A stretch of DNA of 64,000 nucleotides from a bacterium (lineage in GTDB: Bacteria > ARS69): positions 1 to 64,000 of the forward strand of contig JALGZR010000005.1 in NCBI GenBank assembly GCA_025774805.1, given 5' to 3'. Both the position numbers and the translations under genes were made by a program. Of this stretch, positions 1,549 through 59,322 are shown piece by piece (position 1 is the stretch's first letter; each line of letters begins with the position of its first letter). Below the pieces are notes generated by a model. That model ran no database searches, was not told the origin of the DNA, and saw only the letters and a program-made list of their open reading frames with translations.

Positions 1549-2886
1549 ATGAGAGAGAGCACGGTGGGAGCGGGTGCGAAGGAGATGTCGGTCGTGAGCG
1601 TGGCGGCGGAGCTGGGGGGAGAACGGCGGCTCGCTCTCTCCGGCGGCGCGGAGCGATCCCGGGAGTCCACGATTCTGAAGATCGCGGAAGAGATCCGGGA
1701 ACGAAAGCAACGCGGTGAGCAGGTTCTCGATCTGACGATCGGTGACTTCCGTCCCGATCAGTTCCCGGTGCCCGCGACGTACTGTGAGCGGATTCGGGAG
1801 GCGCTCCGCGAGGGTCACACGAACTACCCCCCGGTCGCGGGGCTCCCCGAGATGCGGGAGGCGGTTCGCGACCACGTGCGGAAAGACCTCGGGCTCGAGT
1901 ATCCGACCGACGGCGTCCTCATCGGAGGCGGGGCCCGTCCTCTCATTTACTCCAGTTTCATGGCCTTCGTGGACCCGGGCGACCTCGTGCTCTATCCCGT
2001 ACCGTCGTGGAACAGCCATCACTACGTGAATCTCAGTGGAGCACGCGGGCTCGCTCTCCCGGTCACGGCCGCCAAGAACTTCCATCTGGATCACACCGAC
2101 CTGGCGCCGCATCTCGCGGAGGCCCGTCTCCTCTGCCTCAACTCCCCGTTGAACCCGACCGGTACCTGCATCTCCCGCGAGGCTCTCACCGGAATCTGCC
2201 GGGCGATCGTGACCGAGAACGAGCGTCGGAGTTCGGCCGGTGAGCGCCCTCTCTTCCTGATCTACGATCAGGTTTACAATCTCTTGACTTTCGGGAAGGC
2301 CGAGCACTTCACTCCGGTGCATCTCGTTCCCGAGGTGGCGCCGTACGCGATCCTCATCGACGCGGTGAGCAAGGGCTTCTGCGGCACGGGGCTTCGCGTC
2401 GGATGGGGAATCGGTCCGCCTCCGATCATCAAGAAGATGGCCTCGATGGCCGGCCACTACGGGGCCTGGTGCCCCCGGCCGCAGCAGGTCGGCACCGCGC
2501 GCTTCCTGCGCGACCGCGCCGCGATCGCCGAGCACCGGAAGTCCATGGTGGAGCGCCTCGAGGCGCGGCTCGGCCTCCTGGACCGCGGATTGGGCTCGAT
2601 GCGGATGGCAGGCATGCCGGTCGAGCACATCGAGCCGCAGGGCGCGATCTATCTCTCGGTGCGCTTCGCGCTCCACGGAAGGAACGTCAAAGGAAGGCTC
2701 ATCGAGACGAACGAGGACATCCGCGCGCTACTCCTCGAAGAGGCCGGATTCGCGGTCGTCCCCTTCGACGCCTTCGGTCACGAGGGAGAGCCGGGCTGGA
2801 TGCGCCTCTCCGTCGGCGCGGCCGCCGTGGAGGAGATCGAGGCCGGCCTCGACCGGGTCCGGGCCGTGCTCGAGCCGGCGGGCTAG
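1549..2886 (+). CDS. Aspartate-aminotransferase-like PLP enzyme (class I/II)
   Basis: 445-residue fold-type I aminotransferase. Visible landmarks: GHTNYPPVAGLPEMREAV, where class I enzymes bind substrate; GGGARPLIYSSFMAFVDPGD (cofactor phosphate region); LNSPLNPTGTCIS, the family NPTG motif; YDQVYNLL; and DAVSKGFCGTGLRVGW, containing the PLP lysine in the standard SK-x(5)-GxRxG arrangement. It is longer than the usual ~395 residues because of about 45 extra N-terminal residues, which are Ser/Gly/Ala-rich, so a later start is possible. The substrate is not predictable; the adjacent sugar acetyltransferase might suggest amino-sugar or amino-acid metabolism, but classical nucleotide-sugar aminotransferases are DegT-type. 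The TAG stop (2884–2886) lies in the CTAG of an intergenic repeat. Confidence 0.85.
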   Translation: MRESTVGAGAKEMSVVSVAAELGGERRLALSGGAERSRESTILKIAEEIRERKQRGEQVLDLTIGDFRPDQFPVPATYCERIREALREGHTNYPPVAGLPEMREAVRDHVRKDLGLEYPTDGVLIGGGARPLIYSSFMAFVDPGDLVLYPVPSWNSHHYVNLSGARGLALPVTAAKNFHLDHTDLAPHLAEARLLCLNSPLNPTGTCISREALTGICRAIVTENERRSSAGERPLFLIYDQVYNLLTFGKAEHFTPVHLVPEVAPYAILIDAVSKGFCGTGLRVGWGIGPPPIIKKMASMAGHYGAWCPRPQQVGTARFLRDRAAIAEHRKSMVERLEARLGLLDRGLGSMRMAGMPVEHIEPQGAIYLSVRFALHGRNVKGRLIETNEDIRALLLEEAGFAVVPFDAFGHEGEPGWMRLSVGAAAVEEIEAGLDRVRAVLEPAG

Positions 2887-2989
2887 CCTGCATCTCGCAC
2901 CGGCCTCTGCGGCGGCCTCTGCGGCGGCCCCTGCTGCGTCAGCGACAAGGCCGCGCCTCGCGCCGAGCCTCGTGAGACCTGCCGGCTAG
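2883..2989. repeat. CTAG repeat, inverted pair between convergent genes
   Basis: A minus-oriented arm at 2883–2907 and a plus-oriented arm at 2955–2989, separated by GCGGCGGCC-rich sequence, can fold into one long hairpin. The outer ends are both CTAG. The left one gives the stop codon of the aminotransferase on the plus strand and the right one gives the stop of the aldehyde dehydrogenase on the minus strand. It may act as a bidirectional terminator. Consensus of the family on its own strand: a 5' block GCCTCGCGACGAGCC, one variable base, and a 3' block GGTGAGAAATGCAGGCTAG. Confidence 0.8.
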
Positions 2990-4432: not shown

Positions 4433-4457
4433 CTGGCCTGCATTCCTCACCAACCTC
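4433..4457 (-). repeat. CTAG-family repeat, variant end (CCAG)
   Basis: On the minus strand this reads GTTGGTGAGGAATGCAGGCC followed by AG, matching the 3' block of the family with CTAG changed to CCAG. It lies immediately upstream of the aldehyde dehydrogenase, and its ATG (4441–4443) is in frame with that gene. Confidence 0.65.
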
Positions 4458-16621: not shown

Positions 16622-16638
16622 GATGCCGCCGACCCGCA

Positions 16639-16673
16639 GCCTCGCGACGAGCCCGGTGAGAAATGCAGGCTAG
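16639..16673 (+). repeat. CTAG repeat, near-consensus copy
   Basis: The best full copy: GCCTCGCGACGAGCC, one C, then GGTGAGAAATGCAGGCTAG. It sits between the convergent CHAT and rnc genes. The CTAG at 16670–16673 supplies the minus-strand TAG stop of rnc. Confidence 0.9.
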
Positions 16674-31141: not shown

Positions 31142-31176
31142 CTAGCCCGCTGATCTCCCCAGACTCGTCGCGAGGC
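31142..31176 (-). repeat. CTAG repeat copy behind the M6 peptidase
   Basis: Minus-strand copy: GCCTCGCGACGAGTC, then a GGGGAGATCAGCGGGCTAG block. With the plus-oriented copy at 31289–31323 it makes a widely spaced inverted pair across the 320-base gap (31013–31332) between the peptidase and the DUF3467 gene. I see no gene in that gap. Confidence 0.8.
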
Positions 31177-31288
31177 TGCGGATAGTCGTGGCTGGCAAGG
31201 AGATGGGGTGCTTTGGTCCGAGGCGGGGCCGTCGCTCCGTCGCAGGGCGAAAGCGCCGCAGCGACGAAGCCGGGCGCGACTTCGCCGC

Positions 31289-31323
31289 TGCCGCAGCAGA
31301 GCATGGTGATAAATGCGGGCTAG
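31289..31323 (+). repeat. CTAG repeat copy directly before the DUF3467 gene
   Basis: The 3' block reads GGTGATAAATGCGGGCTAG. The bases after CTAG continue as GAGG, so the repeat end merges with the ribosome-binding site of the DUF3467 gene that starts at 31333. Confidence 0.75.
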
Positions 31324-31692: not shown

Positions 31693-33494
31693 GCGACGCC
31701 CGCCCCGCCCGCTGCTTCTCCTTTTTCCTCCACGGTCATCTTCCCTGGGTCCTCCCGCACGGTCGATGGCCGCACGGAGCCGAGTGGCTCTGCGAGGCCA
31801 CGATCGCCACGTACGTTCCTCTTGTGGGAGCGCTTCGCCGCCTGCGCGCGAAGGGGATCCGCGGGGGGATCACGTTGGGAGTGAGCCCCGTGCTCGCCGA
31901 GCAGCTCGCCCACGGGAAGTTCGCCGAGCTCTTCGGGATCTACCTGGAGGATCGCGTCCGCACGATTCTCGCGGAGATCGATCGTTACGAGCGGGAGGGA
32001 CGCGCCGACTTCCTCGCCCTCGCGAAGAGGGCGCTCGACGAGTATCGCCAAACGCGCTGCCTCTTCTTCGAGGAGTTGGGAGGGGATCTCCTGGGTGCCC
32101 TGCGTGACCTCGAGTCGTCGGGCACGCTCGAGATCGCGACGTGCGGTGCGACCCACGGGTATCTGCCGCTCTTGGGAAGGGAAGAGTCGATCGCCCTTCA
32201 GGTGGAGCTGGCCCGTCGCGTCCACGAACGGCACTTCGGTCGTTCCCCGCGCGGCATGTGGATTCCGGAGGCGGCATACCGGCCGGCCGGCCCCTGGAGC
32301 TCCCCGGTGGGGGGGAGAAGTGCGGATTCGCGGCCCGGCGTCGAGGAACACCTGATGCGGGCCGGGATCCGTTACTTCCTGGTCGACTCGAGCCTCCTCG
32401 AGGGAGGTCGGGGCGTCGGGTCTTACCCCCAGCTCTTCGGGAAGCTCGGAGACGTGTGCGAGGAGGCCCGACGCGATGCCCCTCCCCTTCCGGAACCGGA
32501 GCGCGCCCGTGACACCCGCCGGTCGTACCGGGTCGCCGGGGGTCCGGACGCCACGCCGGGCGTGTGCTGCTTCGTGCGCGATCCCCGAACGGGGCTCCAG
32601 GTCTGGAGCGGGGACCACGGCTACCCGGGCGATCCCGCGTATCTCGAGTTCCACAAGAAGTCGGACACGGGCGGGCACCGCTACTGGCGCGTGACGGGAC
32701 CCGGGGTCGACCTCGGGAACAAGGCGGTCTACGACCCGGACGCCGCGAGCGCGCGGTCGAGTCTGCACGCGGATCACTTCCGGGATCTCGTGGCGGGAGT
32801 CCTCCGGGGGGGGCCCGACGGGTGCATCCTCGCCGCCCCGTTCGATGCCGAGCTCTTCGGACACTGGTGGCGGGAGGGAACATCCTGGCTCGAGGGCGTG
32901 CTCGAGCGGCTGGCCGATCACGACGAGGTGCGTCCGGTCACCTTCGACGAGCACGTGGAGAGCTTCCCGCCCGAGGAGGTCATCCGGCTCCCCGAGGGTT
33001 CCTGGGGAGAGGGAGGAAGGCATTACGTCTGGATGAATCCGAGGGTGGACTGGACGTGGGAGCTCATCTACTCCGCGGAGGACGAGGTCTGGTCCCTGTG
33101 GAGAAAGATCCGAGAGGCGGGAAACGAGCTGGCGCGGCGCGCGGCCGAAGCCGCCGGCCGGCAGCTCCTTCTTCTCTGCGCGTCCGACTGGCAGTTCCTG
33201 ATCACCACGAGAGGCGCCGCGGACTACGCGACCGATCGGGTCCGGCTCCACTCCGACGACCTGGCGGGTCTCACCGACGTGGCTCGGAGAGCATTGCGGG
33301 GAGAGACGATCTCGGACGAGGACCGGGCGTTCCTGGATGCGGTCGAGACGCGGGACGATCTCTTCCCCGAGCTGGCCGACGTGATGGACGTGGCCGTTGG
33401 CCACGACGACCCGTCACGGTTCGCGGGGGCGCGCGAGCACCTCGGCGAGCCGGGTCTCGGGATTGACCCCGAGCGCCAGTCGCCCGTCGAGTAG
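31689..33494 (+). CDS. GH57 family glucan-acting enzyme, DUF1957/branching-enzyme type
   Basis: 601 residues from the GTG at 31689. [11 protein letters not shown] opens the (beta/alpha)7 barrel. [13 protein letters not shown] and [11 protein letters not shown] (nucleophile Glu194), then [13 protein letters not shown] (acid Asp386), are GH57 alpha-glucan branching-enzyme motifs. [12 protein letters not shown] and a helical C-terminal domain ending [12 protein letters not shown] are also typical. It probably acts on glycogen-like glucan; amylase activity cannot be excluded. About 40 residues around 205–265 look like a lineage insert. The end overlaps rnd by 81 bases on the opposite strand. Confidence 0.87.
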
Positions 33495-34607
33495 CTTTCC
33501 CAGATCGTCCCCCACGAGCTCGGCCCGCCACCCCTTGGTGATGGCCGGGGGATCTCCGTCGATCCGGCCGTCCAGGCGCATGGCCGCCATGCGGTCCAGA
33601 TCGATCCGGGTCGCCAGCACGTTCCGTCCGACGCCCGTCTCCCGCGCCCGGAGCTGCACGAGGACGTCCATCAGATCGACGAGGCGGGCCCGCGCCGGGT
33701 CCGCGGAGCGAAGCGGAGGGGGCGAGGGCCGCTGCGCGGGAGGGACGCGAAGGCCCACGGCGACGCGCCCGAGGATCTCCTCACCGTCGCGACGGAGGAC
33801 CCGCTCGGGGAGGTTACGGATCGCGCCGAGATGTTGAATCTGGCGGGGCCCCCGGCGCGCGACCTCGACCAGAACGTCATCACTCACGACCCGATTGCGG
33901 GGGACGTCGCGACTCGCGGCGACCTCCTCCCGCCAGGCCGCGACCTCCCGCAACACCGCGAGCGCCTTCCCGTCGAGGGACTTCCGCCGGGAGAGGCGGA
34001 GGTAGGCCCGCCTCGGGTCCCGGCGAAACGTCTCCTCCGACTCGTAGAATCGATGCTCCTCCTCGATCCACGCGAGGCGACCCAGCCCCTCGAGAGCCGT
34101 GACGAGATGTTCTTGAATCTGCAGCAGATGGCGGACATCGTTGAGAGCATACTCGAGCTGGGCGTCGGTGAGCGGGCGCCGCGCCCAGTCGGTCATCGTC
34201 TCTCTCTTCTTCAGCCGAACGCCGAGCTCCTTCGCCAGAAGTCCGGCGTAACTGATGCTGTCTCCGTGTCCGGCAAACGAGGCCGCGATCTGGGTGTCGA
34301 AGACATTGGCCGCCGGACGGCCCGTCGCGTCGAAGACGATCTGGAGATCCTGCACGCCGGCGTGGAGTACGCTGAGGCACTCCGGATCGGCCACGAGATG
34401 CCAGAGAGGATCGAGTGCGCCCACCTCGAACGGATCGATGGCGGCCACGAGGTCCTCCACGGCCACCTGGACGAGGCAGAGCCGGGGCCAGTAGGTCCGG
34501 TCCTGGATGAACTCCGTGTCCCAGGCGAAGCGACCCGCCCTCCGAATCCTTTCGACGATTCGGAGGAATTCGGCTCGTTCCCGAACGTACAAGGTGCCTC
34601 CCGGCAT
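33414..34607 (-). CDS. rnd: Ribonuclease D
   Basis: 3'–5' exoribonuclease for tRNA maturation and RNA decay. 397 residues. DEDDy exonuclease motifs: [20 protein letters not shown] (Asp, Glu), [13 protein letters not shown], and [10 protein letters not shown] (Tyr-x3-Asp). An HRDC-like region with [24 protein letters not shown] follows. I use the ATG at 34605–34607. A GTG at 34623–34625 sits inside a CTAG repeat, at the position where other copies carry ATG, and would add six residues; neither has a clear ribosome-binding site. The 3' end overlaps the convergent GH57 gene. Confidence 0.93.
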
Positions 34608-34614
34608 TTCAGCG

Positions 34615-34669
34615 CTAGCCCGCACGTTTCACCAGCCTCGCCGCGAGCCCGGTGGGAAATGCACGCCAG
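34615..34669. repeat. CTAG repeat, compact palindromic form
   Basis: A minus-oriented arm (34615–34640, starting CTAGCCCGCACG) and a plus-oriented arm (34635–34669, ending GGTGGGAAATGCACGCCAG) share one central GCCTCGCCGCGAGCC. It is the tightest version of the inverted pair and lies just upstream of rnd. Confidence 0.8.
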
Positions 34670-35140: not shown

Positions 35141-36124
35141 TCAGACGGAGGTCGGCCCCGGCGGCGAATCCGGCGGCTCGCCGGGAGGTGAGAGGCGAGG
35201 GTGACGGGCGAGCGCGCGATCCCGAACCCCCCGCAGCCGGCGCAGCGCCCGGAGACCCGCGAGCGCGCACACTTCGGAGGCGACCCAGGCGCCCAGGTGA
35301 GCGGCCTCGGAGCCGGTCATCCCCAGCACCCGGCCCGCGCAGACTCCGGAGAGGAAGGAGTCCCCGCATCCCGTCGGGTCGACGGCGTCGCGGCAGGGAA
35401 CCGCCGGGATCTCCTCGCTGCGCACCGTCCCCCCGCCCCGGTAGTAGCGGACCGCTCCCTGTTCCCCCCGCGTGACGAGGACCTCCCGCGCTCCGGCCGT
35501 GAGAAGCCTCGCGGCCGCGGCGGAGACGTCGCCGGGCCGTCCGCCGAAGTGCTCGACCTCTTCCTCGTTTCCGCGGACCACGTCGAAGAGCGCCGTCCAC
35601 TCCGGCGCGTCCGGAACGCCGCGCGGCCGCCGCGGGGACCCGAGCGTCCGCGCGAGCGCCTGGATGTCGAGCAGGAACAGCGCCGACGAGCTCCGTCGGA
35701 GCGCGGTCAGGGTCGCCCGTTCGAGGTCCCGCCCGGAGATCATGTTCACCAGGACCGCGCGACCCTCGGCGGCTCCCGACAAATCCGCGGGCGTGAGCGG
35801 GGCGACGCGCATCTCGACCTCCTCCCGTCGGTCTCCGGGGCCGGAGTAGTCGAGAACGGAGAGATTCGTTCCCCCCGGGTCCGGGATCAGGGCGTCGGTC
35901 TCGACGTCGGGGAAGGCGGAGATCAGCTCGACGGCCTCGCTCCGGTGCGCGGATCCCAGCCTTCCGTGCGGCCGGACCCGGATGCCCGTCCCCTCGAGCA
36001 CGGCGGCGAGCGACAGGACATTGTAGAGGATCCCGCCCAGGCTCTCGTGCCGGGCTCCGTCGGGAGCGATGATGACGTCGTGGTTCACCGTGCCGACGAT
36101 CGAGACGAAGTCCCTAGTCCGCAT
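35141..36124 (-). CDS. PfkB-family sugar/nucleoside kinase
   Basis: 327 residues. FVSIVGTVNHDVI opens the ribokinase fold, LGGILYNVLSLA resembles the substrate-binding GG region, VRGNEEEVEHFGG and LVTRGEQGAVRYY follow, and the catalytic base and anion hole are in DAVDPTGCGDSFLSGV. The substrate is not evident. The start ATG (36122–36124) lies inside a CTAG repeat, and its GGTGAG may serve as the ribosome-binding site; no other in-frame start keeps the first strand. It overlaps the lpxL stop by 11 bases. The C-terminus is Pro-rich. Confidence 0.85.
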   Translation of the reverse strand: MRTRDFVSIVGTVNHDVIIAPDGARHESLGGILYNVLSLAAVLEGTGIRVRPHGRLGSAHRSEAVELISAFPDVETDALIPDPGGTNLSVLDYSGPGDRREEVEMRVAPLTPADLSGAAEGRAVLVNMISGRDLERATLTALRRSSSALFLLDIQALARTLGSPRRPRGVPDAPEWTALFDVVRGNEEEVEHFGGRPGDVSAAAARLLTAGAREVLVTRGEQGAVRYYRGGGTVRSEEIPAVPCRDAVDPTGCGDSFLSGVCAGRVLGMTGSEAAHLGAWVASEVCALAGLRALRRLRGVRDRALARHPRLSPPGEPPDSPPGPTSV

Positions 36125-36148
36125 TTCTCACCCGGCTCGTCGCGAGGC
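36114..36148 (-). repeat. CTAG repeat forming the lpxL/pfkB junction
   Basis: Full minus-strand copy with GCCTCGCGACGAGCC, one G, and GGTGAGAAATGCGGACTAG. Its reading frame encodes the last ten residues of lpxL (LATSRVRNAD plus TAG). The internal ATG at 36122–36124 is the start of pfkB, so one element gives both stop and start. Confidence 0.9.
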
Positions 36149-37106
36149 CGCCGCGCCCGCCCCGGATCGGTTCCTCCCCGCGCGGGGCGGAGGGGGTCGC
36201 CCCGCCGTCGGGCGGCCGGGTCTTCCATCGACGGTGAGCCCAGAAGTAGTTCGTCGGCCAGCGGAGGACGAGCGACTCGAGGTAGCGATTGAAACGGACG
36301 GCGCCGTCGCGCCGGTTCCGCACCTCGTCGAGACTCGGATCGGGCCTCCAGACCTCGTGCGGAACGAGGGTGTAGGTGTCTCCCTCGTCCACGAGCGCGC
36401 CGAACACGAGAGGAGCCCCGGTTCGCATCGCGAGGGACACGATCCCCCCGTGGGTGGACGCCGGCGTCCCGAGGAAGTCGATGAACACCCCCTTGCCCCG
36501 GGCGTCCTGATCCATGAGCGTGACGACGCAGCCGCCGCCTTCGAGGTGTCGCACGACCCCTCGCAGATCCCGCCGGGGCGAGAGAGGCTCGATTCCGGCC
36601 GCCCGCCGGGCCCGCATCACCCGTTCGTTCACGCGGGGATTCGCCATGTCGGCGGCCAGCGCCGCTATGGAGACCCCGAGCCGGCGGAGCCCCTGGATCG
36701 CCAGCTCCCAGTTGCCGAAGTGCCCGGACACGACCAGCGAGCCTCCGTCCTTCGTGAGCGAGTGCTTCAGCTCCTCCATCCCCGAACGGGAGAGAACGCC
36801 CCAGAGCTCTTCGTCCCCGAGGCGGCCTCCCCGAAGGAGGTCGACGAACGTGCGGGTCATCACGGCGTAGCTCTCACGGGCGATCGATTCCGCCTCCGGG
36901 CGCCCGCCCTCCGGCTGCAATCTCTCCAAAACGTTCCGAACCGCGACCTCACGGCGTACCCGGGCGATGTCGAACGCGAACCGGCCGGTGCCCGTCGCGA
37001 ATCGCATGGCCGATCGTCGCGAACCGGCTCGAACCGCGGCCTCGAGGCCGCGGAAGCCGACGAGCTCGAGAACGTGGCGGGCGCGCCGGCCCGGCCTAGC
37101 CTGCAT
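36114..37106 (-). CDS. lpxL: Lysophospholipid/lipid A late acyltransferase (LpxL/HtrB family)
   Basis: 330 residues. Acyltransferase motif SGHFGNWELA (His-x4-Glu), LMDQDARGKGVFIDFLGTPAST, APLVFGALVDEGD, and the typical SLVLRWPTNYFWAHRRWKTRP at the end of the fold. It adds a secondary acyl chain to lipid A at the inner membrane, which supports a diderm host. The start ATG (37104–37106) lies in a short CTAG repeat shared with the dprA stop. The last ten residues and the stop come from another copy. About 25 Gly/Pro/Arg-rich residues after the fold look non-essential. Confidence 0.92.
   Translation of the reverse strand: MQARPGRRARHVLELVGFRGLEAAVRAGSRRSAMRFATGTGRFAFDIARVRREVAVRNVLERLQPEGGRPEAESIARESYAVMTRTFVDLLRGGRLGDEELWGVLSRSGMEELKHSLTKDGGSLVVSGHFGNWELAIQGLRRLGVSIAALAADMANPRVNERVMRARRAAGIEPLSPRRDLRGVVRHLEGGGCVVTLMDQDARGKGVFIDFLGTPASTHGGIVSLAMRTGAPLVFGALVDEGDTYTLVPHEVWRPDPSLDEVRNRRDGAVRFNRYLESLVLRWPTNYFWAHRRWKTRPPDGGATPSAPRGEEPIRGGRGGLATSRVRNAD
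37096..37106 (-). repeat. CTAG repeat remnant forming the dprA/lpxL junction
   Basis: Only the 3' end ATGCAGGCTAG is kept. The ATG starts lpxL and the TAG stops dprA, an 11-base overlap identical in layout to the lpxL/pfkB junction. Confidence 0.7.
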
Positions 37107-38135
37107 GACTCGCCTCTCTCGTGTCGACGAGACCGAGCAGCTCCAGACGGGCCAGGCGATCGCGCGCGTCGGGAGTGGAGACGCCGAGCGCGGCGGCGAG
37201 CTCGTCCGGGGTCCGCGCCCCGGAGCGGTGAGCCTCGAGGGCGCGCACCTCGTCGGGCTCGAGCCCGGGACCGCCGCGGATTCCGTTCAGGTCCTCGAGG
37301 AGGTCCTCGGCGTCCCGGATCGGGCGCGCCCCCTCCCGGAGAAGGGCGAGGGGTCCCGCCGACCGCGCCGAGCCGGGCCATCCGGGAACGACGAAGATCT
37401 CCCGCCCGAGATCGAGCCCGTGCCGAACGGTCACGAGAGCACCGCCGCGGATCCGGGACTCGACGACGACGATCGCATCTCCCAGGGCGGCGAGAATCCG
37501 ATTCCGACGCGGGAAGTGGCCCGAGCGCGGCTCGGCCCCCGGCACGAACTCGGAGACGACGGCGCCCTCCTCCCCGATCCGGTCCTGAAGATCCCGGTTC
37601 TCGGGAGGGTAGGCCACATCGGGGCCGCACCCCAGAACCGCCACCGTGTCGCCGTCCGCCTCGAGGGCTCCGCGGTGGGCGGCCGTGTCGATGCCGCGGG
37701 CGAGACCGGAGATCGTGGCCCACCCCTCTTCGGCCAGCCGCTCGCCCAGGTGACGGGCCAGCCTCGCCCCCCCGGGCGAACACTCCCGGGTGCCGACCAC
37801 GGCGACCGCACGTTCCCGCAGGGTCTCGGGGCGGCCGCGCAAGAAGAGCACCTCGGGGGGATCGGAGAGGTCCTCGACGCGGTCGGGCCAATCCGCTTCG
37901 CCGCGGAAGAGAGGCCGGACGCGACAGGCGTCGCACGCGCTCTGCACCTCCTTCCCCCGGCGCTCGGCGTTCGCGAACCCCGGGCGCAGCCGCTCGGGCA
38001 CGGCGCGGTCTCCCCGGGACGCGGCCTGCACGGCGCGCGACCAGCCCCCGCAGCGGTCCCGGACCGCGCGGGCGGTCTTGGGTCCGATGCCGCGCGTCCC
38101 GACCAGTCCGAGCCGAATGCGGCGATCGCGGTCCA

Positions 38136-38136
<1 letters not shown>
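37096..38136 (-). CDS. dprA: DNA-processing protein DprA
   Basis: 346 residues from the ATG at 38134–38136, with GGAGG upstream. An N-terminal helical (SAM-like) part with GIGPKTARAV is followed by the Rossmann domain: VAVVGTRECSPGGARLARHLGERLAEEG, ISGLARGIDTAAHRGAL, VLGCGPDVAYPPENRDL, FPRRNRILAALGD, and a C-terminal winged-helix region (PDELAAALGVSTPDARDRLARLELLGL). It loads RecA on incoming single-stranded DNA during transformation. Type IV pilus genes in the same window fit natural competence, though ComEA/ComEC are not seen. Confidence 0.94.
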
Positions 38137-39895
<1,759 letters not shown>

Positions 39896-40012: not shown

Positions 40013-40040
40013 CTAACCTGCACCTCTCACCAGGCTCGGC
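40013..40040 (-). repeat. CTAG-family repeat, variant end (TTAG)
   Basis: Minus-strand 3' part reads GCCGAGCCTGGTGAGAGG followed by TGCAGGTTAG. It sits between the divergent obg and HAD genes, in the 186-base gap that holds no other visible feature. Confidence 0.65.
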
Positions 40041-43700: not shown

Positions 43701-43729
43701 GGCAGGGCAGGGTGAGATACGCCGGCTAA
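43701..43729 (+). repeat. CTAG-family repeat, variant end (CTAA)
   Basis: GGCAGGGCAGGGTGAGATAC followed by GCCGGCTA. The CTA supplies the minus-strand TAG stop of the sigma-54 activator gene. GC-rich GCCGCC sequence precedes it, as in the 2883–2989 pair. Confidence 0.65.
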
Positions 43730-45276
43730 ATGCCGAACCGCTTGATCTTCGAGTTCAGGGTCGTGCGAGGGATGCCCATGAGTCGAGCCGCCTCTCGCTT
43801 GTTCCCTTCGGTCAACTGGAGAACGGAGCGAATGTAGTCCCTTTCCATGCTCGCGTAGGACGGCACCCCCCGGCCGTCCGCTCCGAGGACGGAATCGAGG
43901 TCGGCCCCTCGGCCCCGGCCGGGGGGCGCCGGTCCGTCCGCCTCCGAGGTGGATCCGGAGGCGATTTCCGGCCCATCGGGAATGTGCTCGGGACGCAGCT
44001 CGGGACCTCCTCGGGAACGGACGATGGCCCCGGCGATCAGACTCTCCAACTCGCGGACGTTGCCCCGAAGATCCCTCGTGGACAGCACCTCGACGAAGCC
44101 GGGTGTCATCCGCAGCTCGGAGCTCACGGTGCTCCGATATCCCTCGAGAACGTGCTCGGCGATCGCGGGGATTTCCTCCCTCCGCTCCCGCAGCGGGTGG
44201 ATCTTCACCGTGTACATCTGAAGGCGATAGAAAAGATCGGCGCGGAATCGCTCCGCTTCGACTTCCCGGACGAGATCGCGATTCGTCGCGCTGATGACCC
44301 GGGCCGTAGCCGGGATCATCCGGGATCCCCCCACCCTGCGGAAGCCGCGCTCCTCCAGCACGCGCAGGAGCATGGCCTGGGTGTCGAGCGGCATGTCCCC
44401 GATCTCGTCGAGGAAGATCGTCCCGTCGCCCGACCTCTCGAACGCTCCCCGAACCGTCGAGTCGGCCCCCGTGAAGGCTCCCTTCTCGTGGCCGAAGAGC
44501 GCGCTCGCCATGAGGTCCTGGGGGATGGCCGCGCAGCTGATCGCCTCGAAGCTCTCCGCCCGGCGGTGGCTGAGCTCGTGCACGGCGTGGGCGACGAGCT
44601 CCTTGCCGGTGCCCGTCTCCCCGAGGATCAGCACCGGTAGATCGAGCTTCGCGACGGCGACGACCTCGGCGAAGAGGGAGGCGGTGCGATCGCCCTCCCC
44701 GCGAATCGTAGTCAGGATGGGATGCTCTTTCCGGAGCGAAAGGATCCGCGCCGCGGGATCCCGGTCGCGCTCCGTAGCCCCGACATCGGCGCCGAACGAG
44801 GTCCCGAGCGCGAGGACCGACTGCCCGACGATCTCCCGGACCACCGGAACGTCTCTCCCGGCGAAGGGCTCCCCCAGCAGCTTGGGTCCCAGGGCGAAGA
44901 AGCCCCGCACCCGACCCTCGAGACGGACGGGACAGACCAGCTCGATCTCGAGACCACGGGCGAGGCGCGCGACCCTCGGGCCGAGACCGGCGATCTCCTC
45001 TCCGCAGAGCGGATCGACGGACTCGCCGAGCGTCTTCTCCATCCGGCGGGTCAGGGGCAGAGAGACCTCGGGAACCTCGGAGAGTCCCTGCGCGGCGCGG
45101 AGAGTGAGGCGATCGTCGGAATCGCGCTCGAAGAACACCGCGAAGCTCGCTCCGCTGGCGCCCATGAGCGAGAGCAGCGCCGTGGTCAGGATCGGCTCCC
45201 GCCCGCGGAGCCCGAGGAAGCCGCGCGCCGTGTCGTACAGCAGGGAGAGCTCCAGCAGGTCTTTTCTGGGATCCAC
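43726..45276 (-). CDS. Sigma-54-dependent activator with N-terminal GAF domain
   Basis: 516 residues. GAF-like sensor at about 20–165 (ILTTALLSLMGASGASFAVFFER), AAA+ domain at about 190–425 with Walker A LGETGTGKELVA, the sigma-54 contact loop GAFTGAD, Walker B GTIFLDEIGDM and RADLFYRL, then a Fis-type helix-turn-helix (GNKREAARLMGIPRTTLNSKIKRF). There is no receiver domain, so it should answer to a ligand rather than a kinase. A perfect palindrome lies 26–51 bases before its start. Its natural target may be the sigma-54 promoter at 43009. Confidence 0.93.
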   Translation of the reverse strand: MDPRKDLLELSLLYDTARGFLGLRGREPILTTALLSLMGASGASFAVFFERDSDDRLTLRAAQGLSEVPEVSLPLTRRMEKTLGESVDPLCGEEIAGLGPRVARLARGLEIELVCPVRLEGRVRGFFALGPKLLGEPFAGRDVPVVREIVGQSVLALGTSFGADVGATERDRDPAARILSLRKEHPILTTIRGEGDRTASLFAEVVAVAKLDLPVLILGETGTGKELVAHAVHELSHRRAESFEAISCAAIPQDLMASALFGHEKGAFTGADSTVRGAFERSGDGTIFLDEIGDMPLDTQAMLLRVLEERGFRRVGGSRMIPATARVISATNRDLVREVEAERFRADLFYRLQMYTVKIHPLRERREEIPAIAEHVLEGYRSTVSSELRMTPGFVEVLSTRDLRGNVRELESLIAGAIVRSRGGPELRPEHIPDGPEIASGSTSEADGPAPPGRGRGADLDSVLGADGRGVPSYASMERDYIRSVLQLTEGNKREAARLMGIPRTTLNSKIKRFGI

Positions 45277-45301
45277 GGGTCGTCTCCCGGTCGCATCGTC
45301 G

Positions 45302-45327
45302 CCCGGACGATAGCATCATCGTCCGGG
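45302..45327. promoter_or_regulatory. Perfect inverted repeat upstream of the GAF activator
   Basis: CCCGGACGAT and ATCGTCCGGG, 10-bp arms around AGCATC, end 26 bases before the start codon. Could be an autoregulatory operator or a leader hairpin. The rest of the 255-base gap to pilQ holds only the pilQ terminator. Confidence 0.45.
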
Positions 45328-45439
45328 GGAGGGAAATCAACCGGGTCTCTCGGAGCGGCCAACGTACGGTCGTGGAGGAGATGCACTGCGACCGCCCACC
45401 GGAGCCCGGAAGCGGAATCGAGCGCGAACACGCAAAGGT

Positions 45440-45473
45440 GAAGGCGCCGGGGACCGTCGTCCCCGGCGCCTTC
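45440..45473 (-). terminator. Terminator of the pil operon
   Basis: Perfect 15-bp stem (45440–45454 and 45459–45473) with a CGTC loop, 60 bases past the pilQ stop. The minus-strand flank ACCTTTG is weakly U-rich. The plus flank AATGTTT would also serve. Confidence 0.7.
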
Positions 45474-45532
45474 AATGTTTCCGCGTTCTCCGGCGCGCGG
45501 TCATCCGCGCCCGGAGAGATGCGACCTGAGCG

Positions 45533-46822
45533 CTAGGCCTGATCGGGCATCACGATCTTCGGAGTGACGAGGATGATCAGCTCCCTCTGCTCCCGGATGT
45601 CCGTCGAGGTCTTGAACAGGTTTCCCAGAACCGGAACGTCCATGAGATAGGGGATCCCGTTCTCCACCGAGGAGTCGTTCGTCCGGACGAGTCCGCCGAT
45701 GACCGCGGTCTGGCCGTCATTCACGATCACCCGGGTCGACGCCTCGGCCGTCACGATCACGATGCCGCCCTGGACCGTCGCCTGCGAGGACAGATCCGAG
45801 ACCTCCGGCACGAGATCGAGGGTGACCCGATTGTCCTGGTTGATGTGCGGGATCACCGTGAGCTTGATCCCGATCGTGGTCAGCTCGGTGATCGCGTTAC
45901 CGGACTCGTCGGACACCACGAGCGGGATCTTCTTCCCGACGATGATCTTCGCTTCCTTGTTGTCCGCCGTGGTGATCTTCGGATTGGAGATGATCTCCGC
46001 GAAGTCGTTCCGCGCAAGCGCCTCGAGCTGCGCGGTGAGATCCCCGTCCGTTCCGATGAGCTCGAAGTCGACCGTTCCGACCTGGAGAGCCTCGGGAAGA
46101 TCGAAGTCCGCGGAGAGATCGATCTTCTTGACGTCTCCCTGGTTCAATCCCGACGTCTCCCAGTCGATGCCGAGGCTGCGGAGCTTCCGGGTGTCCACAT
46201 CCACGAGCTTGGCCTCGATCTCGACCTGCGGAGTCCGGTAGTCGAGAATCGTCACCATCTCGCGAATGCTCTCCAGGCGATCGTGAATGTCGGTCACGAT
46301 CAAGGCATTCGTGCGCAGGTCGGGCTCGATCTTGCCCCGCGTGGAGAGGAGAATCTCCAGCGGCTTCTTCATCTCGTCCGCCTTCGCGTAGCTGACCCGC
46401 ATGACGGCGGTCTCGAGAGGCAGGAACTCCTCCCGTTTCCTCTCCACCACCTCTTCGTTCAGCCGCTCGTTGTTGAGCTTCTCCAGCGTGGTGACCCGGA
46501 TGATGTCGTCCAGCCGTTCCCAGCCGTATCCGTTCGTCCGGAGCACCGTGTCGAGGGCGACAAGCCAGGGCACGCCCTCGATCTTGGCGGTGATCTTGCC
46601 GTCGACCTCGGGTCCGGAGATGATGTTGACTCCCGCGAACTCGGAGAACATCCGCAGCACCGATTGGACGGTCGCGGCCTGAACGTCGAGCGCGATCGGG
46701 GCCATGTCCTCCGTGTCGATCGGTGGCCGGTAGGCCTCCGCGGGAATCACGCCCGCGGCCGTCAAGACGATGATCGCCAGGCCCAGCGTGAAGCCCTTTC
46801 GGAAGAATTCCAGTCTAGCCAT
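45533..46822 (-). CDS. pilQ: Type IV pilus secretin PilQ, short form
   Basis: 429 residues: signal peptide (FTLGLAIIVLTAAGVIPAEA), a secretin N-terminal STN-like domain (IALDVQAATVQSVLRMFSEFAGVNIISGPEVDGKIT), one N1-type domain (MVTILDYRTPQVEIEAKLVDVD) and the beta-barrel secretin domain to VPVLGNLFKTSTDIREQRELIILVTPKIV. It forms the outer-membrane pore for the pilus. Well-known PilQ proteins are 700–900 residues and carry AMIN peptidoglycan-binding domains; these are missing. It overlaps pilP by 8 bases. Confidence 0.92.
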   Translation of the reverse strand: MARLEFFRKGFTLGLAIIVLTAAGVIPAEAYRPPIDTEDMAPIALDVQAATVQSVLRMFSEFAGVNIISGPEVDGKITAKIEGVPWLVALDTVLRTNGYGWERLDDIIRVTTLEKLNNERLNEEVVERKREEFLPLETAVMRVSYAKADEMKKPLEILLSTRGKIEPDLRTNALIVTDIHDRLESIREMVTILDYRTPQVEIEAKLVDVDTRKLRSLGIDWETSGLNQGDVKKIDLSADFDLPEALQVGTVDFELIGTDGDLTAQLEALARNDFAEIISNPKITTADNKEAKIIVGKKIPLVVSDESGNAITELTTIGIKLTVIPHINQDNRVTLDLVPEVSDLSSQATVQGGIVIVTAEASTRVIVNDGQTAVIGGLVRTNDSSVENGIPYLMDVPVLGNLFKTSTDIREQRELIILVTPKIVMPDQA

Positions 46823-47423
46823 TCTTCACGTCCTTCCTCTCCTCGAGTTTCAGCTGGACCGTGGTGGTGTATCCGAGAATCGTCTGCGAGGCGACGAGAG
46901 CATCCTCCGTGATGCGGACCACGCGACCGTTCTTCACCCGGTCATCCTTACGCAGTACATAGCTGATTCCCTCCACGTCCTCGACGACGCAGAAGGGGAC
47001 CTCTCCACTCGTGACGACTCCGACGAGAGTGACGACCGAGAGGTCGACGACGTCGGACCAGTTCTCGTCCTCGGATGAGACGAGAGAGCGGAACGGGTCA
47101 CGGGACTTCGATGCCCGATACAGCATCGCTTGCTCCCGGAGGGGTACTCCCGTCTTCGTGGTCTCCTCGTTGAGGGGCTGAGCTCCCTTCGTGGCGACCG
47201 CCGGGCCTTCCACCCGGGCCGGGTCCGGGGCGGACGGGACCTGTGGCTGTGGCTGTTCCGTCGCGGAGGCGCTCACGGCCGGAGGTATTTCCGTTTTGTC
47301 CTTCGAGTTCGTTCCGCCCGTGAACTGGCTCACGGCATCGCCACTACAGCCGGCGAAAGCGAGAACGGCGCCGATCGCGAGGCCTGCGACGAGAATCCGT
47401 GAGAGGGCGTTCCTAGTGACCAC
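46815..47423 (-). CDS. pilP: Type IV pilus lipoprotein PilP
   Basis: 202 residues from a GTG. Lipobox LAFAGC gives a lipidated Cys near residue 26. A Pro/Ala/Thr-rich flexible linker (30–90) is followed by the compact PilP beta domain (LSVVTLVGVVTSGEVPFCVVEDVEGISYVLRKDDRVKNGRVVRI). It links the PilMNO inner-membrane complex to PilQ. Overlaps pilO by 11 bases and pilQ by 8. Confidence 0.88.
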   Translation of the reverse strand: MVTRNALSRILVAGLAIGAVLAFAGCSGDAVSQFTGGTNSKDKTEIPPAVSASATEQPQPQVPSAPDPARVEGPAVATKGAQPLNEETTKTGVPLREQAMLYRASKSRDPFRSLVSSEDENWSDVVDLSVVTLVGVVTSGEVPFCVVEDVEGISYVLRKDDRVKNGRVVRITEDALVASQTILGYTTTVQLKLEERKDVKNG

Positions 47424-48078
47424 CTGGCATCCCTCCCCTGGTCCTGGCGTTCGGCCGCGGCGCCGGAGTCGGCGTCGCCGCAGCCGCCCGCTGATCCGCA
47501 GAAAGCAGCGTGTACGCCATCAAGCTCAGATTCGCCTCGACGACGTCGGGAAGCTCCGAGCCGGACGGATTCGCCACGTTCTTGAGATCGATGGATTTGA
47601 CGTTGATGATCCGGGGCAGGTTGCTCACCCGGCCGAGGAAGACCCCGATGTCGTGGTAGCCGCCCTGGACGGTGACCTCGATCGGGTTCTCCATGTAGAT
47701 CTCGCGCGGGGTCGGAGGCTTCGGCTGGAAGAGCAGGAACTCCACCCCCGAGCGCCGACCGGCGACCGTGACCTGGGAGAGCAGCTCGGCCATCTCCTTC
47801 TCGGTGGGCAAGAGCGTCTTCGCCTCGTCCCACTGCGAGGTGATCTGCTCGTACTCCTTCTTCACCTGAGGAAGCCGGCTGGCGGCCTGTTTCGCCTTCA
47901 TCAGGTCGGCCGAGAGCTTTTCGTACTCCACCTCGAGGGCCGCGATCTCCGCGGTTCGCGGCTTGTACCCGAAGGGGATGATGGGCGAGAGGAAGAAAAC
48001 GTAGGCGAACGTCAGCGAGATGATCACCACCATCCCGGCAATCTGCACGTTCGGATCACGGAAATCGATGTTTCCCAT
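47413..48078 (-). CDS. pilO: Type IV pilus assembly protein PilO
   Basis: 221 residues: one membrane helix (IAGMVVIISLTFAYVFFLSPI, about 13–33), a coiled coil (AEIAALEVEYEKLSADLMKAKQAA), then a ferredoxin-like periplasmic domain with VTVQGGYHDIGVFLGRVSNLPRIINVKSIDL, typical of PilO. The C-terminus is Ala/Pro/Arg-rich. Partner of PilN. Confidence 0.9.
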   Translation of the reverse strand: MGNIDFRDPNVQIAGMVVIISLTFAYVFFLSPIIPFGYKPRTAEIAALEVEYEKLSADLMKAKQAASRLPQVKKEYEQITSQWDEAKTLLPTEKEMAELLSQVTVAGRRSGVEFLLFQPKPPTPREIYMENPIEVTVQGGYHDIGVFLGRVSNLPRIINVKSIDLKNVANPSGSELPDVVEANLSLMAYTLLSADQRAAAATPTPAPRPNARTRGGMPGGH

Positions 48079-48090
48079 GCTCGACCCCTC

Positions 48091-48660
48091 CTAGGAATCG
48101 CCGATCCGGACCGCGTCGATAGACGAGGTGACGGTGAAGTTCACGGTATTCTGGCCTTCCACGACCTTACGCTTCGCCACGCTCAGCTCCGCTTCGCGGA
48201 AGATCTCGGACTGGTCGAGACTCGACATGAGATCCGAGATGACCAGATTCGAGAATGCGTAGCCGTCGATCGAGTACTTCTCGGGAGCGATGTTCTTGAA
48301 CGACGTGAGCCACATGTAGCGGGGCACCCGGCGGGCCACCTCGTCCAGCACCCGAACCGTCCGGAATCGGTCCTTGTCGAGGGTCTGCACGAGATCGAGC
48401 CTGCGGTTCAGCTCCTGCTCCTTTCGAACCATCTCGTCGATCAGCGCGATCGTTCTCCGGTACTGCTCGGACTCGGCGCGCGCCGTGGCCACGTCCCGCT
48501 CGATCGCCTGCAGGCGCGCGCTCTGCACCACCGTGGTGGCGAGGCTGGCGATGAGGACGATGGTCAGGCAGACGAGCGGCACTACCTTCATCCGGTCGAG
48601 CCGGATTCCGGCGCGTCGGTGGTGCCGTTGTTCCTGGGGAAGCAGATTGATGCGGATCAT
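48091..48660 (-). CDS. pilN: Type IV pilus assembly protein PilN
   Basis: 189 residues. The cytoplasmic MIRINLLP motif that docks on PilM is at the very start, followed by a membrane helix (VVPLVCLTIVLIASLATTVV, about 25–45), a coiled coil and the domain with LDEVARRVPRYMWLTSFKN. Three bases after pilM. Confidence 0.93.
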   Translation of the reverse strand: MIRINLLPQEQRHHRRAGIRLDRMKVVPLVCLTIVLIASLATTVVQSARLQAIERDVATARAESEQYRRTIALIDEMVRKEQELNRRLDLVQTLDKDRFRTVRVLDEVARRVPRYMWLTSFKNIAPEKYSIDGYAFSNLVISDLMSSLDQSEIFREAELSVAKRKVVEGQNTVNFTVTSSIDAVRIGDS

Positions 48661-48663
48661 GGA

Positions 48664-49716
48664 TCACTCCCCTTCCGTCCGGAGCGCGAGCCCGGCGGCC
48701 ACCATGTAGTGGGGACCCAGGAGATCGGGGTCTTCGCTCCCGAACAGGTCCTCCTCCCACACGAGGTTCCGGAACGGATTCGCGACTTCAACCGGAGACC
48801 CCTGTCGCTTCTCGATCGACTCCCGAAGCCCCGGCGCGAACGAGCTCCCGCCCGACAGGCAGATTCGGTCGACGTGGTCGGCCTCCCCGGAGGCTCTCAG
48901 GTACGAGAGCGACTTCTCGATTCCGACGGCGAGCTCCTCGCCCACCAGCCCCACGATCGATTGGAGGTCGTCGAGACGCTCCTCGCCGGGATTCTCGAGG
49001 ATCTCGTTGGCCTCGTCGTAGTCGACGCCGAGATCCTTCTGGATCGCCTCGAGGATCGCGTTCCCCGCGAAGGAGAGGTCCCGAGTGAAGTAGGGGATCC
49101 CGTCCTTCACGATGTTCACATTCGTGACGAAGCAACCCACGTTCAGAAGGAGAGTGACGTTTCCTTCGGGGTACTCGTGGTTCCGTTCGTAGGCGTTCTG
49201 AACGGCGAACGACTCGACGTCGATCACGGTCGGAGTGAGCCCCGCGGCTCGCATGAGCTCGGATCGGGCCTCGAGCATCTCCTTCTTCGCCGCGACCAAG
49301 AGCACGTCCATCTTGTCCGGAGAGCTCTCCCGATTCAGAACCTGGAAATCGAGGGAGACGTCATCGATGTCGAACGGGATGTGCTGCTCCGCTTCCCAGT
49401 GAATCGCCTCTCGCGCCTGCTCGTCGGTCATCATGTCCATCTGGATCTTCTTGACGATGACCGCCCGGCCGCTGACCGCGCTCACCACATGCCGGGAGGC
49501 GATCTCGTTGACCTCGAAGAGCTCGGCGATCGTGTCCACGACCACATCGCGATCCATGACCTCGCCGTCGACGATGGCTTCCGGGAGGAGTCCACAGCGA
49601 CCGAACCTCACCAGCCGGGAAGTCTCACCGGAGTGGTCCAGCTCGACCACTTTGATGGAGCTCGAGCCGATGTCGAGGCCGACGGTCCTTTTCGATCCCC
49701 GACCGAACTTGAACAT
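48664..49716 (-). CDS. pilM: Type IV pilus actin-like ATPase PilM
   Basis: 350 residues. Actin-fold nucleotide motifs GLDIGSSSIKVVELD, LLNVGCFVTNVNIVKDG, and ICLSGGSSFAPGLRESIEK; VEVANPFRNLVW near the end is the usual PilM C-terminus. It binds the PilN N-terminus in the cytoplasm. Start of the PilMNOPQ run. Confidence 0.95.
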   Translation of the reverse strand: MFKFGRGSKRTVGLDIGSSSIKVVELDHSGETSRLVRFGRCGLLPEAIVDGEVMDRDVVVDTIAELFEVNEIASRHVVSAVSGRAVIVKKIQMDMMTDEQAREAIHWEAEQHIPFDIDDVSLDFQVLNRESSPDKMDVLLVAAKKEMLEARSELMRAAGLTPTVIDVESFAVQNAYERNHEYPEGNVTLLLNVGCFVTNVNIVKDGIPYFTRDLSFAGNAILEAIQKDLGVDYDEANEILENPGEERLDDLQSIVGLVGEELAVGIEKSLSYLRASGEADHVDRICLSGGSSFAPGLRESIEKRQGSPVEVANPFRNLVWEEDLFGSEDPDLLGPHYMVAAGLALRTEGE

Positions 49717-49771
49717 GCTGTCTCCTCTCCTCCGTTGAGGCTAATCGTTCCAGGGGCTCCACCTCGGCCGA

Positions 49772-51292
49772 TCACCGCGACCGATCGTCGAGATTGCCCG
49801 ACAGGAGGGCAACGACGGGCGTGTCCAGCACGTAGGGAGACTCCCCGGCCTCCCGGAACGCGCCTCGAACGTTGATCCAGACCCGAAGGTCCTTCCCGCC
49901 CGTCACGAGATCGTCATCCCCGTCTCCGTCCAGGTCGAGCGCCGCGAAGGCTACGGGAAACTCTCCCCCCGTCGCGAGCCTCGCCGGCGATCCCGTCTCC
50001 GGAATCGCGAGCGCGGCCCCGGTCCGTGCCTCCCGCACGACCACGAGCCACCCCGGTCCACCGTCGAAGCCGAAGGCTCCGTCCACCGCGCCAAGCGGTT
50101 CCCCGGGGAGCCGCAAGACCCTGGACGAAGCCGGCTTCGAACCTCCTTGGGTATCGGCAGGCCAATCCCAGGACTCAAGCATTCCTTCGGCCCCTTCCCC
50201 CGTGAGAATGAGGAGGCGATCCGCGCCGGAAGCCGGCCCCCGAGCCCGGCGCATCACCCGGATCCGGCCCCGGGAGCCGAGGGGGGGCTCCAGCAGTTCC
50301 TGGGGAGCCCAGGCGGGCTCTTCCCCGCTCTCACGGCGCCAGACTCGAATGCGGGTGTCGTACATGTCCAAAAGCGCCAAGAAGATCTCGTCCGCCCCGT
50401 CCCCGTTCGCGTCGGCCAGCGCCAGCGCGTCCGGCAGCCCCTCCAGCGGGGTCACCTGGGCCGGCCCCTCGGCCAGCCCGAGGCGAATCGTCAGTCCCCG
50501 CCCCCGCGAGGCGGTCACGAGATCGGGCTTGCCGTCGCCGTCCAGGTCGCCGACCGCCGACGCCGCGACCTGCCGGCCGATGGCCAGCGATCGACCCGGC
50601 TCGAACCGCCCTCCTCCTCCGTTCATTCCGACCCGGAGCTCGCCGCGGGTTCCGGCCACCACGAGGTCGAGGCGATCGTCGTCGTCGAGATCGGCCAAGA
50701 CCGGCAAACCGATCGGAACTCCGGTCGGGAGGATCGCTCCGGGGGTGAATCCTCCCGCCCCGCTTCCCGTCCACGCCCGGGCGGAACCGTCCCGGTCGAA
50801 CAGGAAGAGATCGGGAGTCGAGACGCGCGGCTTCACCCGCACGGTGCCTCGGCCCACCGCCACCGGGGCGACCTCCGCGCCGCGAACCCGGATCTCGAAG
50901 GGGTGGACGGCGTCCCGGACCCAGGTGTAGGTGTCGATCGTGCCCACGACCTCTTCGACGCTCGAGTCGAACGCGCCATCCACGGGGAGCATCTCGATGC
51001 GCTCCCCTTCCCGTTCCTCCTCGAGGAGGACGAGCGTGGCGCCGGTCACGTGCGGCCGGGACTCTTCCGCCGCGATCCGCGCCCAGACGTTGACCGACAT
51101 CGTTCCCAGCGCGATCTGCTCCGGCGCCTCCAGGTATTCGAGGACGAACTGCGGGCGGGCCTCTCCCGCGGAGGGCTCGGGAACGTCCGCGATCATCTGC
51201 GCGCGCGCCGCGAACGAGAACACGACCACCATCCCCGCGAGCGCGGTGTTCCCTGCCCGCCGGGTCACCCGGCCGGGACCCGTCGTCCTCAT
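49772..51292 (-). CDS. Secreted FG-GAP/VCBS beta-propeller protein in the pil cluster
   Basis: 506 residues from the ATG at 51290–51292, which overlaps the activator stop (ATGA). Signal peptide NTALAGMVVVFSFAARAQ. Repeated LADLDDDDRLDLVV, GDLDGDGKPDLVT, LADANGDGADEIF and LDLDGDGDDDLVTGG are calcium-binding FG-GAP blades of a seven-bladed propeller (about 190–490), preceded by a beta-rich domain. It lies between the second PilR-like gene and pilM. It may sit at the cell surface near the pilus pore or act as an adhesin; this is inference from place only. Confidence 0.85.
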   Translation of the reverse strand: MRTTGPGRVTRRAGNTALAGMVVVFSFAARAQMIADVPEPSAGEARPQFVLEYLEAPEQIALGTMSVNVWARIAAEESRPHVTGATLVLLEEEREGERIEMLPVDGAFDSSVEEVVGTIDTYTWVRDAVHPFEIRVRGAEVAPVAVGRGTVRVKPRVSTPDLFLFDRDGSARAWTGSGAGGFTPGAILPTGVPIGLPVLADLDDDDRLDLVVAGTRGELRVGMNGGGGRFEPGRSLAIGRQVAASAVGDLDGDGKPDLVTASRGRGLTIRLGLAEGPAQVTPLEGLPDALALADANGDGADEIFLALLDMYDTRIRVWRRESGEEPAWAPQELLEPPLGSRGRIRVMRRARGPASGADRLLILTGEGAEGMLESWDWPADTQGGSKPASSRVLRLPGEPLGAVDGAFGFDGGPGWLVVVREARTGAALAIPETGSPARLATGGEFPVAFAALDLDGDGDDDLVTGGKDLRVWINVRGAFREAGESPYVLDTPVVALLSGNLDDRSR

Positions 51293-54599: not shown

Positions 54600-55387
54600 C
54601 GCACGAAGAGGCCCCAGTACGCTTCCACGATGCGCGTTCCCACGAACATGACGACGACGGCGCCGGGCGCCAGGAACGTCCCGAAGGGAAGCTCCGCCGT
54701 CCGACCCTTGCCGGTGCGGAGCATGAACCATGTCGCGAACAGAGTGCCGGAAACCGAGCCGATCAAGATCGTCAGGAACGCTCCGACCGGCCCCAGAAAC
54801 GCGCCCACCATCGCGAGGAGCTTCACGTCTCCCCCCCCGAGCCCCTCCCGACCCGTCGCCGCCCGGTAGCCGGTGGCGATGAAGAGGAGCCCGCCCGCCC
54901 CGATCAGAACCCCGAGGAGCGCGTCCAGCGGGCCCACCACCAGCCCCGCGAAGGCGGCGGCGAGACCGAGAAGGGTCCCGGGCAGGGTGATCACGTCGGG
55001 GATGATCATGTGATCGAGATCGATGAACGTGACCGCGATCATCGCCGTGGCGAAGACGAGAGCGACGGCGAGCCCGGTGGGCTCGGCGATGAACCGTCCT
55101 GCCGCCATGAAGAGAACGGCGGTGAGGAGCTCCACGAACGGATAGCGGAAGGAGATGCGCTCTCCGCAGGCACGGCATCGTCCGCGCAGCAGGAGCCACG
55201 AGATCACGGGAACGTTGTCCCAGGGACGGATCGGCTCCCGGCAGTCGGGACAGCGCGAGCCGGGGCGCAGCAGCGACTCCTTCCGGGGCAAACGGTGGAT
55301 CACCACGTTGAGGAAGCTCCCCACGCACGCACCGAGCCCGGCGAGAAGCGCGGGGTGACGCAGGATCACGAGGGTCTCCGAGCTCAT
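54596..55387 (-). CDS. pilD: Prepilin peptidase/N-methyltransferase PilD
   Basis: 263 residues, polytopic. VGSFLNVVIHRLP, then the zinc-binding CPDCREPIRPWDNVPVISWLLLRGRCRACG (two CxxC), and the two catalytic aspartates in FIDLDHMIIPD and GGGDVKLLAMVGAFLG. It cleaves and methylates the PilA leader. The start at 55385–55387 overlaps the previous stop by 3–4 bases. Confidence 0.95.
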   Translation of the reverse strand: MSSETLVILRHPALLAGLGACVGSFLNVVIHRLPRKESLLRPGSRCPDCREPIRPWDNVPVISWLLLRGRCRACGERISFRYPFVELLTAVLFMAAGRFIAEPTGLAVALVFATAMIAVTFIDLDHMIIPDVITLPGTLLGLAAAFAGLVVGPLDALLGVLIGAGGLLFIATGYRAATGREGLGGGDVKLLAMVGAFLGPVGAFLTILIGSVSGTLFATWFMLRTGKGRTAELPFGTFLAPGAVVVMFVGTRIVEAYWGLFVR

Positions 55388-58225: not shown

Positions 58226-58350
58226 CGTTGCACGTACACGGACCCGTTTCCGTCATCGGCCTGGCGGACTGGCGAGTTGAGACCGGCGAGGATGGACCCG
58301 AGGGGGACCGGGGCCGGCGGAGCGAGATCCCGGCCAGGTGCCGGGGCCCC

Positions 58351-58380
58351 GGCGCCGGCGGGCGCCGGCGGGCGCCGGAG
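58351..58380 (+). repeat. Tandem repeat of GGCGCCGGCG
   Basis: Three 10-base units, the last with one change, in the 253-base gap (58226–58478) between the ABC ATPase gene and pilA. Each unit is itself nearly palindromic. It may help end the pilA transcript or be a slippage-prone site. Confidence 0.75.
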
Positions 58381-58426
58381 AGGAGCGGAGCCGGCCGGGA
58401 GAGAATGATCCGGGCCGGGAAAGCGA

Positions 58427-58452
58427 GGGGCGGGACCTCGCGGCCCCGCCCC
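58427..58452 (-). terminator. Terminator behind pilA
   Basis: GGGGCGGG (minus strand) and CCCGCCCC form an 8-bp G+C stem (arms 58427–58434 and 58445–58452), followed by TCGCTTTCCC, 27 bases after the pilA stop. The U tract is weak, so some read-through into the ABC genes is likely. Confidence 0.5.
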
Positions 58453-59292: not shown

Positions 59293-59322
59293 CACGCGAG
59301 CCTGGTGAGAAATGGAGGCTAG
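59293..59322 (+). repeat. CTAG repeat between pilR and the pilA promoter
   Basis: GCGAGCCTGGTGAGAAATG then GAGGCTAG. Its CTAG gives the TAG stop of pilR on the minus strand, and the element separates the pilSR transcript from the pilA control region. Confidence 0.8.

Follow-up and report, generated by a model that had tools for sequence, protein, structure and literature searches.

Copies of a palindromic CTAG-ended repeat family at the overlapping stop/start junctions of the dprA-lpxL-pfkB operon in an ARS69 bacterium

The dprA-lpxL-pfkB operon of this ARS69 genome most probably carries, at two junctions that already overlapped, partial copies of a high-copy, non-autonomous palindromic mobile element (MITE- or REPIN-like) that sits at CTAG; we give this reading a probability of about 0.8. 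The repeat forms a family of palindromic elements that has been amplified in the lineage of this genome, since its copies are dispersed, its inverted pairs have sharp sizes, its consensus folds as a hairpin and genomes of the same family have almost none. The dispersed near-identical copies point to transposition as the cause of the spread, with CTAG as the probable target.

The repeat end, GGTGAGAAATGCRGGCTAG, occurs 466 times with at most three mismatches in the whole genome (5.1 Mb), against once for a reversed control. In the window, by which we mean the whole 64,000-nucleotide stretch analysed, the 19-mer terminus has 10 matches with at most three mismatches (none in each of 20 Markov-random windows), and ATGCRGGCTAG has eight with at most one mismatch, where 0.64 are expected. 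Over 842 kb, later 1.57 Mb, of the genome many termini form inverted pairs with CTAG outermost, the remainder being solo ends. Pair sizes fall into sharp classes: about 182 bp (20 pairs), near 83 bp, and 55 bp exactly. Fourteen copies measure exactly 182 bp; they lie at unrelated loci, and each shares 156-175 of its 182 positions with the consensus (86-96%). Terminal inverted repeats of 19 bp are present and near-perfect, and the full-form consensus is predicted to fold into one end-to-end hairpin. In its 182-, ~83- and 55-bp forms the family is multi-copy and has no coding capacity of its own, as is usual for bacterial MITEs in size and copy number.

Full copies have CTAG at most ends, and element ends read CTAGCC[CT]GCATTTCTCACC. 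With this palindromic CTAG at both ends a target-site duplication is indistinguishable from part of the inverted repeat; related copies in two other genomes (G039 and G004) end in YTAR, with no consistent direct repeat. At four loci (L031:8556, L046:13337, L054:1043, L057:3871) there are 14-bp minimal palindromes, CTAGYCCGGRCTAG, three of them abutting an element and sharing its CTAG; these have the look of footprints left by excision or deletion, or of nested insertion into an existing CTAG. Rfam gave no family above the gathering threshold for the element; across the window and a pair of loci rich in elements, the only match was a tRNA. The 182-bp consensus found only short chance matches among plasmids, and a literature search using the motif letters returned nothing relevant.

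Table 1. Operon genes and repeat copies in the window
Feature	Coordinates	Strand	Remarks
dprA	37096..38175	-	
lpxL (Lip_A_acyltrans)	36114..37106	-	last ~10 residues repeat-encoded; tail longer than in relatives
pfkB-family kinase	35141..36124	-	start is the element ATG
Partial element, lpxL/pfkB junction	36114..36151	-	one arm and terminus, CCTCGCGACGAGCCGGGTGAGAAATGCGGACTAG; ATG gives pfkB start, TAG gives lpxL stop
Truncated element terminus (likely), dprA/lpxL junction	37096..37114	-	GGCGAGTCATGCAGGCTAG; 3 mismatches; ATG gives lpxL start, TAG gives dprA stop
Full-length element copy, 182 bp	31142..31323	.	consensus and long hairpin fold
Inverted pair, 107 bp	2883..2989	.	between convergent aminotransferase and aldehyde dehydrogenase (ALDH) genes; gives both TAG stops
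Short palindromic form, 55 bp	34615..34669	.	contains GTG (34625) of rnd (RNase D, 33414-34625, -)
Solo copy	16636..16673	+	rnc (16670-18595, -) stops at its outer CTAG
Solo terminus	4433..4451	-	contains alternative ALDH ATG (4443)
Solo terminus	40013..40031	-	intergenic
Degenerate terminus	43711..43729	+	4 mismatches; stop of sigma-54 activator (43726-45276, -)
Solo terminus	59304..59322	+	stop of NtrC/PilR-type response regulator pilR (59319-60734, -)

The first-pass annotation had proposed that both operon junctions are 11-base stop/start overlaps built from repeat copies, and sequence and reading frames bear this out (dprA/lpxL, 37096-37106; lpxL/pfkB, 36114-36124). The dprA TAG (37098-37096) and the lpxL ATG (37106-37104) both fall inside ATGCAGGCTAG, and the lpxL TAG (36116-36114) and the pfkB ATG (36124-36122) both fall inside ATGCGGACTAG. 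The LpxL C-terminus reads ...GLATSRVRNAD*, its last ten residues coming from the repeat, again as first read. The lpxL/pfkB copy is clear-cut: it spans 38 bp, has one mismatch in the 19-mer and retains the inner arm CCTCGCGACGAGCC. The dprA/lpxL copy is a terminus of 19-22 nt only, with ordinary conserved DprA sequence on its inner side. Its derivation from the element is likely, yet less secure than that of the lpxL/pfkB copy because just a terminus with three mismatches is present; so short and degenerate a match could reflect chance plus selection. The remaining LpxL tail resembles the inner element weakly but collinearly (score 42, a value reached by one of 300 simple shuffles), which suggests that the lpxL/pfkB copy is possibly the decayed remnant of a longer element reaching about 36220. 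The pfkB start at the element ATG was missed by our simple gene finder, and homology places the start there within one codon.

Gene order at this locus is kept in related MAG contigs, dprA-lpxL-pfkB in L071 and L072 (the latter apparently identical to contig G001:C489) and dprA-lpxL in G002, and none has a copy there. At dprA/lpxL two of these three have an 8-base overlap, TTGAGTAG in L072 and GTGCCTGA in G002, and L071 has a 3-nt gap; at lpxL/pfkB both contigs have a 4-base overlap, GTGA in L072 and TTGA in L071. Start codons align within about one codon between the operon and its same-family relatives. The LpxL C-terminus is 17 residues longer than that of the best ortholog by alignment, and about 20 longer by eye than in L071 and L072. 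Tight coupling in this operon is thus older than the repeat, since same-family relatives without copies already have overlaps and aligned starts. The first-pass annotation had suggested that a mobile or copied element became the operon's coupling signal, and had pointed to relatives lacking the copies as the relevant comparison. On same-family genomes that comparison gave tight overlaps in most cases, dprA/lpxL of L071 excepted, so that the idea survives in part: a dispersed, copied element does form the junctions and the LpxL tail, but its having become the coupling signal is not supported, as the junctions overlap without it. Judged by these alignments, the element seems to have been accommodated at pre-existing overlaps, and what is new is the roughly 20-residue LpxL tail and start and stop letters that are now the repeat's own.

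The route we envisage begins with internal deletions of the 182-bp form, which would generate the ~83-bp, 55-bp and solo-end forms. The element would sit at the rare tetranucleotide CTAG, with its TA core; about half of extragenic CTAGs are stops (C-TAG), and a copy would keep or recreate the TAG and leave the end of the neighbouring gene unmoved. Two partial copies would have landed on, or been trimmed into, the already overlapping junctions. The lpxL/pfkB remnant would have given LpxL its C-terminal tail and new TAG and pfkB its ATG, and the element-like terminus at dprA/lpxL would give the dprA TAG and the lpxL ATG. These element ATGs are predicted to be used in the cell.

Seven genes in the window had been noted to take their stop from a copy (those for the aminotransferase, ALDH and the activator at 43726, and rnc, lpxL, dprA and pilR), and each case held when checked singly. 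Five read into the copy and end at its outer CTAG or TTAG; lpxL and dprA alone run outward. Also present are the rnd GTG and the alternative ALDH ATG reported inside copies. Several genes beside these copies have features of their own. The RNase III encoded by rnc carries a probably disordered C-terminal tail of ~385 residues, rich in R, P and E; the rnc ortholog of G002 is also a long reading frame, extending about 250 residues beyond the conserved part. Directly upstream of the copy at 16655 a large CHAT-domain (caspase-like peptidase) protein is encoded (13658-16621, +), and several sigma-54 activator genes within 16 kb (44350-60305) are the source of the longest direct repeats in the window.

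The genome-wide figures for elements, CTAG and gene ends come from 1.57 of the 5.1 Mb, the second half of this sample from contigs mostly known to carry copies, and from gene calls by a simple home-made finder. CTAG is very rare in this sample, with 280 copies outside elements against 150 at element ends, the latter making up about 35% of the total. An extragenic CTAG is as likely to be a gene stop with an element (65 of 135; stop:intergenic, 65:70) as without one (97 of 208; 97:111; Fisher p=0.83), and because these fractions are equal the supply of stops is as predicted from CTAG residence alone. At about 30% of ends (70/235) a gene enters the element and stops at its outer TAG. Where such a gene has an ortholog of at least 50% identity, its C-terminus lies within nine residues of the ortholog's end; therefore copies lie where genes natively end. 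The supply of stop codons is a side effect of element location at CTAG. In the direction of lpxL and dprA, with the gene running out of the element, only four of the 235 ends give a stop, two of them the operon junctions described here, and the arrangement in the operon is therefore an exception with no genome-wide design.

Predicted gene starts coincide with 10 of the 235 ends, and the 59 predicted starts near element ends peak at the element ATG (10/59). Nine genes with a predicted start there encode proteins beginning MQA[R/K/S/G] (L252:395, L254:4450, L268:9090, L273:1133, L277:17479, L284:17523, L066:7093, L067:13227 and L036:14626). Native-looking predicted N-termini can follow directly after this tag, as in MQA-RILMSAYAC (a glycosyltransferase) and MQA-GFSRAIPRNWAVHVLLIVGAVSF (an ABC permease). 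Start calls at the element ATG are biased, because a TGA in the same frame, two codons before it, leaves no possible start further out. We regard it as a tentative proposal, with the odds against it, that the outer end is a portable translation cassette (GGTGAG, ATG, nearby TAG) providing functional starts for some tens of genes, so that the operon overlap was re-formed by a repeat that repeatedly re-engineers junctions.

Among the closest known systems are the GTAG-tagged REPs and REPINs, whose termini often furnish neighbouring ORFs with a TAG stop (Di Nocera et al. 2013, PMC3733652). Like these (PMC3733652; TnpAREP work, PMC8266576), the present repeats are high-copy palindromes with a tetranucleotide tag that occur as inverted dimers besides solo ends; they lie at 3' ends and are over-represented where two genes converge (20 of 66 elements, against 101 of 692 junctions). 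They could therefore be a REP/REPIN family moved by a RAYT (Y1) transposase, with CTAG in the role of GTAG. Unlike GTAG REPs, however, they have a 182-bp full form tagged at both ends, and the tag stands away from the local hairpin, 15 bases without one separating it from the nearest palindrome at a solo end, as read from the sequence. A search for Y1_Tnp (PF01797) moreover found no match, either here or in G001-G004, four genomes of the same family. We consider a RAYT origin rather unlikely; it would be a sub-case of the mobile-element reading favoured here, and the two probabilities overlap.

Other candidate mobilising enzymes fared no better. The genome, a 96%-complete MAG, was searched for Y1, IS630 (DDE_3) and IS4/IS5 (DDE_Tnp_1) domains and yielded none, and the corresponding drivers were set aside; IS1380 was rejected since its sole match is a fragment without these ends. 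Among four inspected ORFs between widely spaced inverted ends, candidates for an autonomous parent, none begins like a transposase.

Still less probable is a role of the terminus as a translational module under selection, in which the Shine-Dalgarno-like GGTGAG, the ATG, the TAG 5 nt later and the TGA lying in frame two codons before the ATG would be retained for coupling or initiating the next gene's translation. GGTGAGAAATGCRGGCTAG does carry these signals, nearby starts peak at its ATG, and the N-termini MQARILMSAYAC (glycosyltransferase) and MQARRIGRAVLLGALCALA are plausible. Against this, so few of the ends are predicted starts or outward stops, the TGA biases the calls, the operon overlaps are older than the element, and recent copying accounts for the conservation of the terminus. 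Fixed, non-mobile regulatory hairpins at 3' ends (terminators or RNase III sites) arisen by selection would suit the strong fold, the enrichment at convergent 3' ends and the 30% of ends that fall right at a stop, but are very improbable given the closely matching 182-bp copies at unrelated loci, the abundance of solo and half copies and the near absence from same-family genomes.

The four same-family genomes have 0-5 weak matches each, one pair of them making a palindrome of 56 bp whose arms are perfect and end in TTAG/CTAA. The genome G039 (L168, L165, L175), which belongs to another phylum, has related palindromic elements of ~185 bp, and one of ~264 bp, with ends YTARCCCGCATTTCTCACGAGG; their likeness suggests that the two genomes possibly share a widespread superfamily. 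The same genome also has a sister family with TTAGCCCGCATTATTCATG ends. An exact-motif search of viral contigs found seven with related ends, and in the three read by eye no transposase was recognised. One contig of the viral collection (L227, IMGVR_UViG_3300049216_000555) has both its ends within copies of a related element bounded by CTAG, which suggests that its assembly broke at repeats.

In general form the mobile element favoured here resembles the TA-ended MITEs Correia/NEMIS, ERIC and RUP (PMC2229807), which are likewise about 100-200 bp long with terminal inverted repeats and TA near the ends, and which also form a hairpin RNA over their whole length, have shorter classes with internal deletions and fuse with ORFs. 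It differs from them in its unrelated sequence and strict CTAG context, and its parental IS was not found among the families searched. Elements that replace a gene stop and encode a C-terminal tail are described in QMITE2 in Coxiella enhC and in ERIC/RU-1 in ECA3499 (PMC5896051, PMC2759123); the LpxL tail is like these, except that the same few bases also give the start codon of the next gene. REP-supplied TAG stops and MITE-encoded tails are thus already published in kind, and what is added here is a new family and an unusually neat stop/start case in an operon. It offers a worked case of a palindromic mobile repeat that accounts for many of the copies of a rare tetranucleotide and is tolerated because CTAG is often a stop, and a warning that, at such junctions, called starts, stops and overlaps can stem from repeat insertion, not design.
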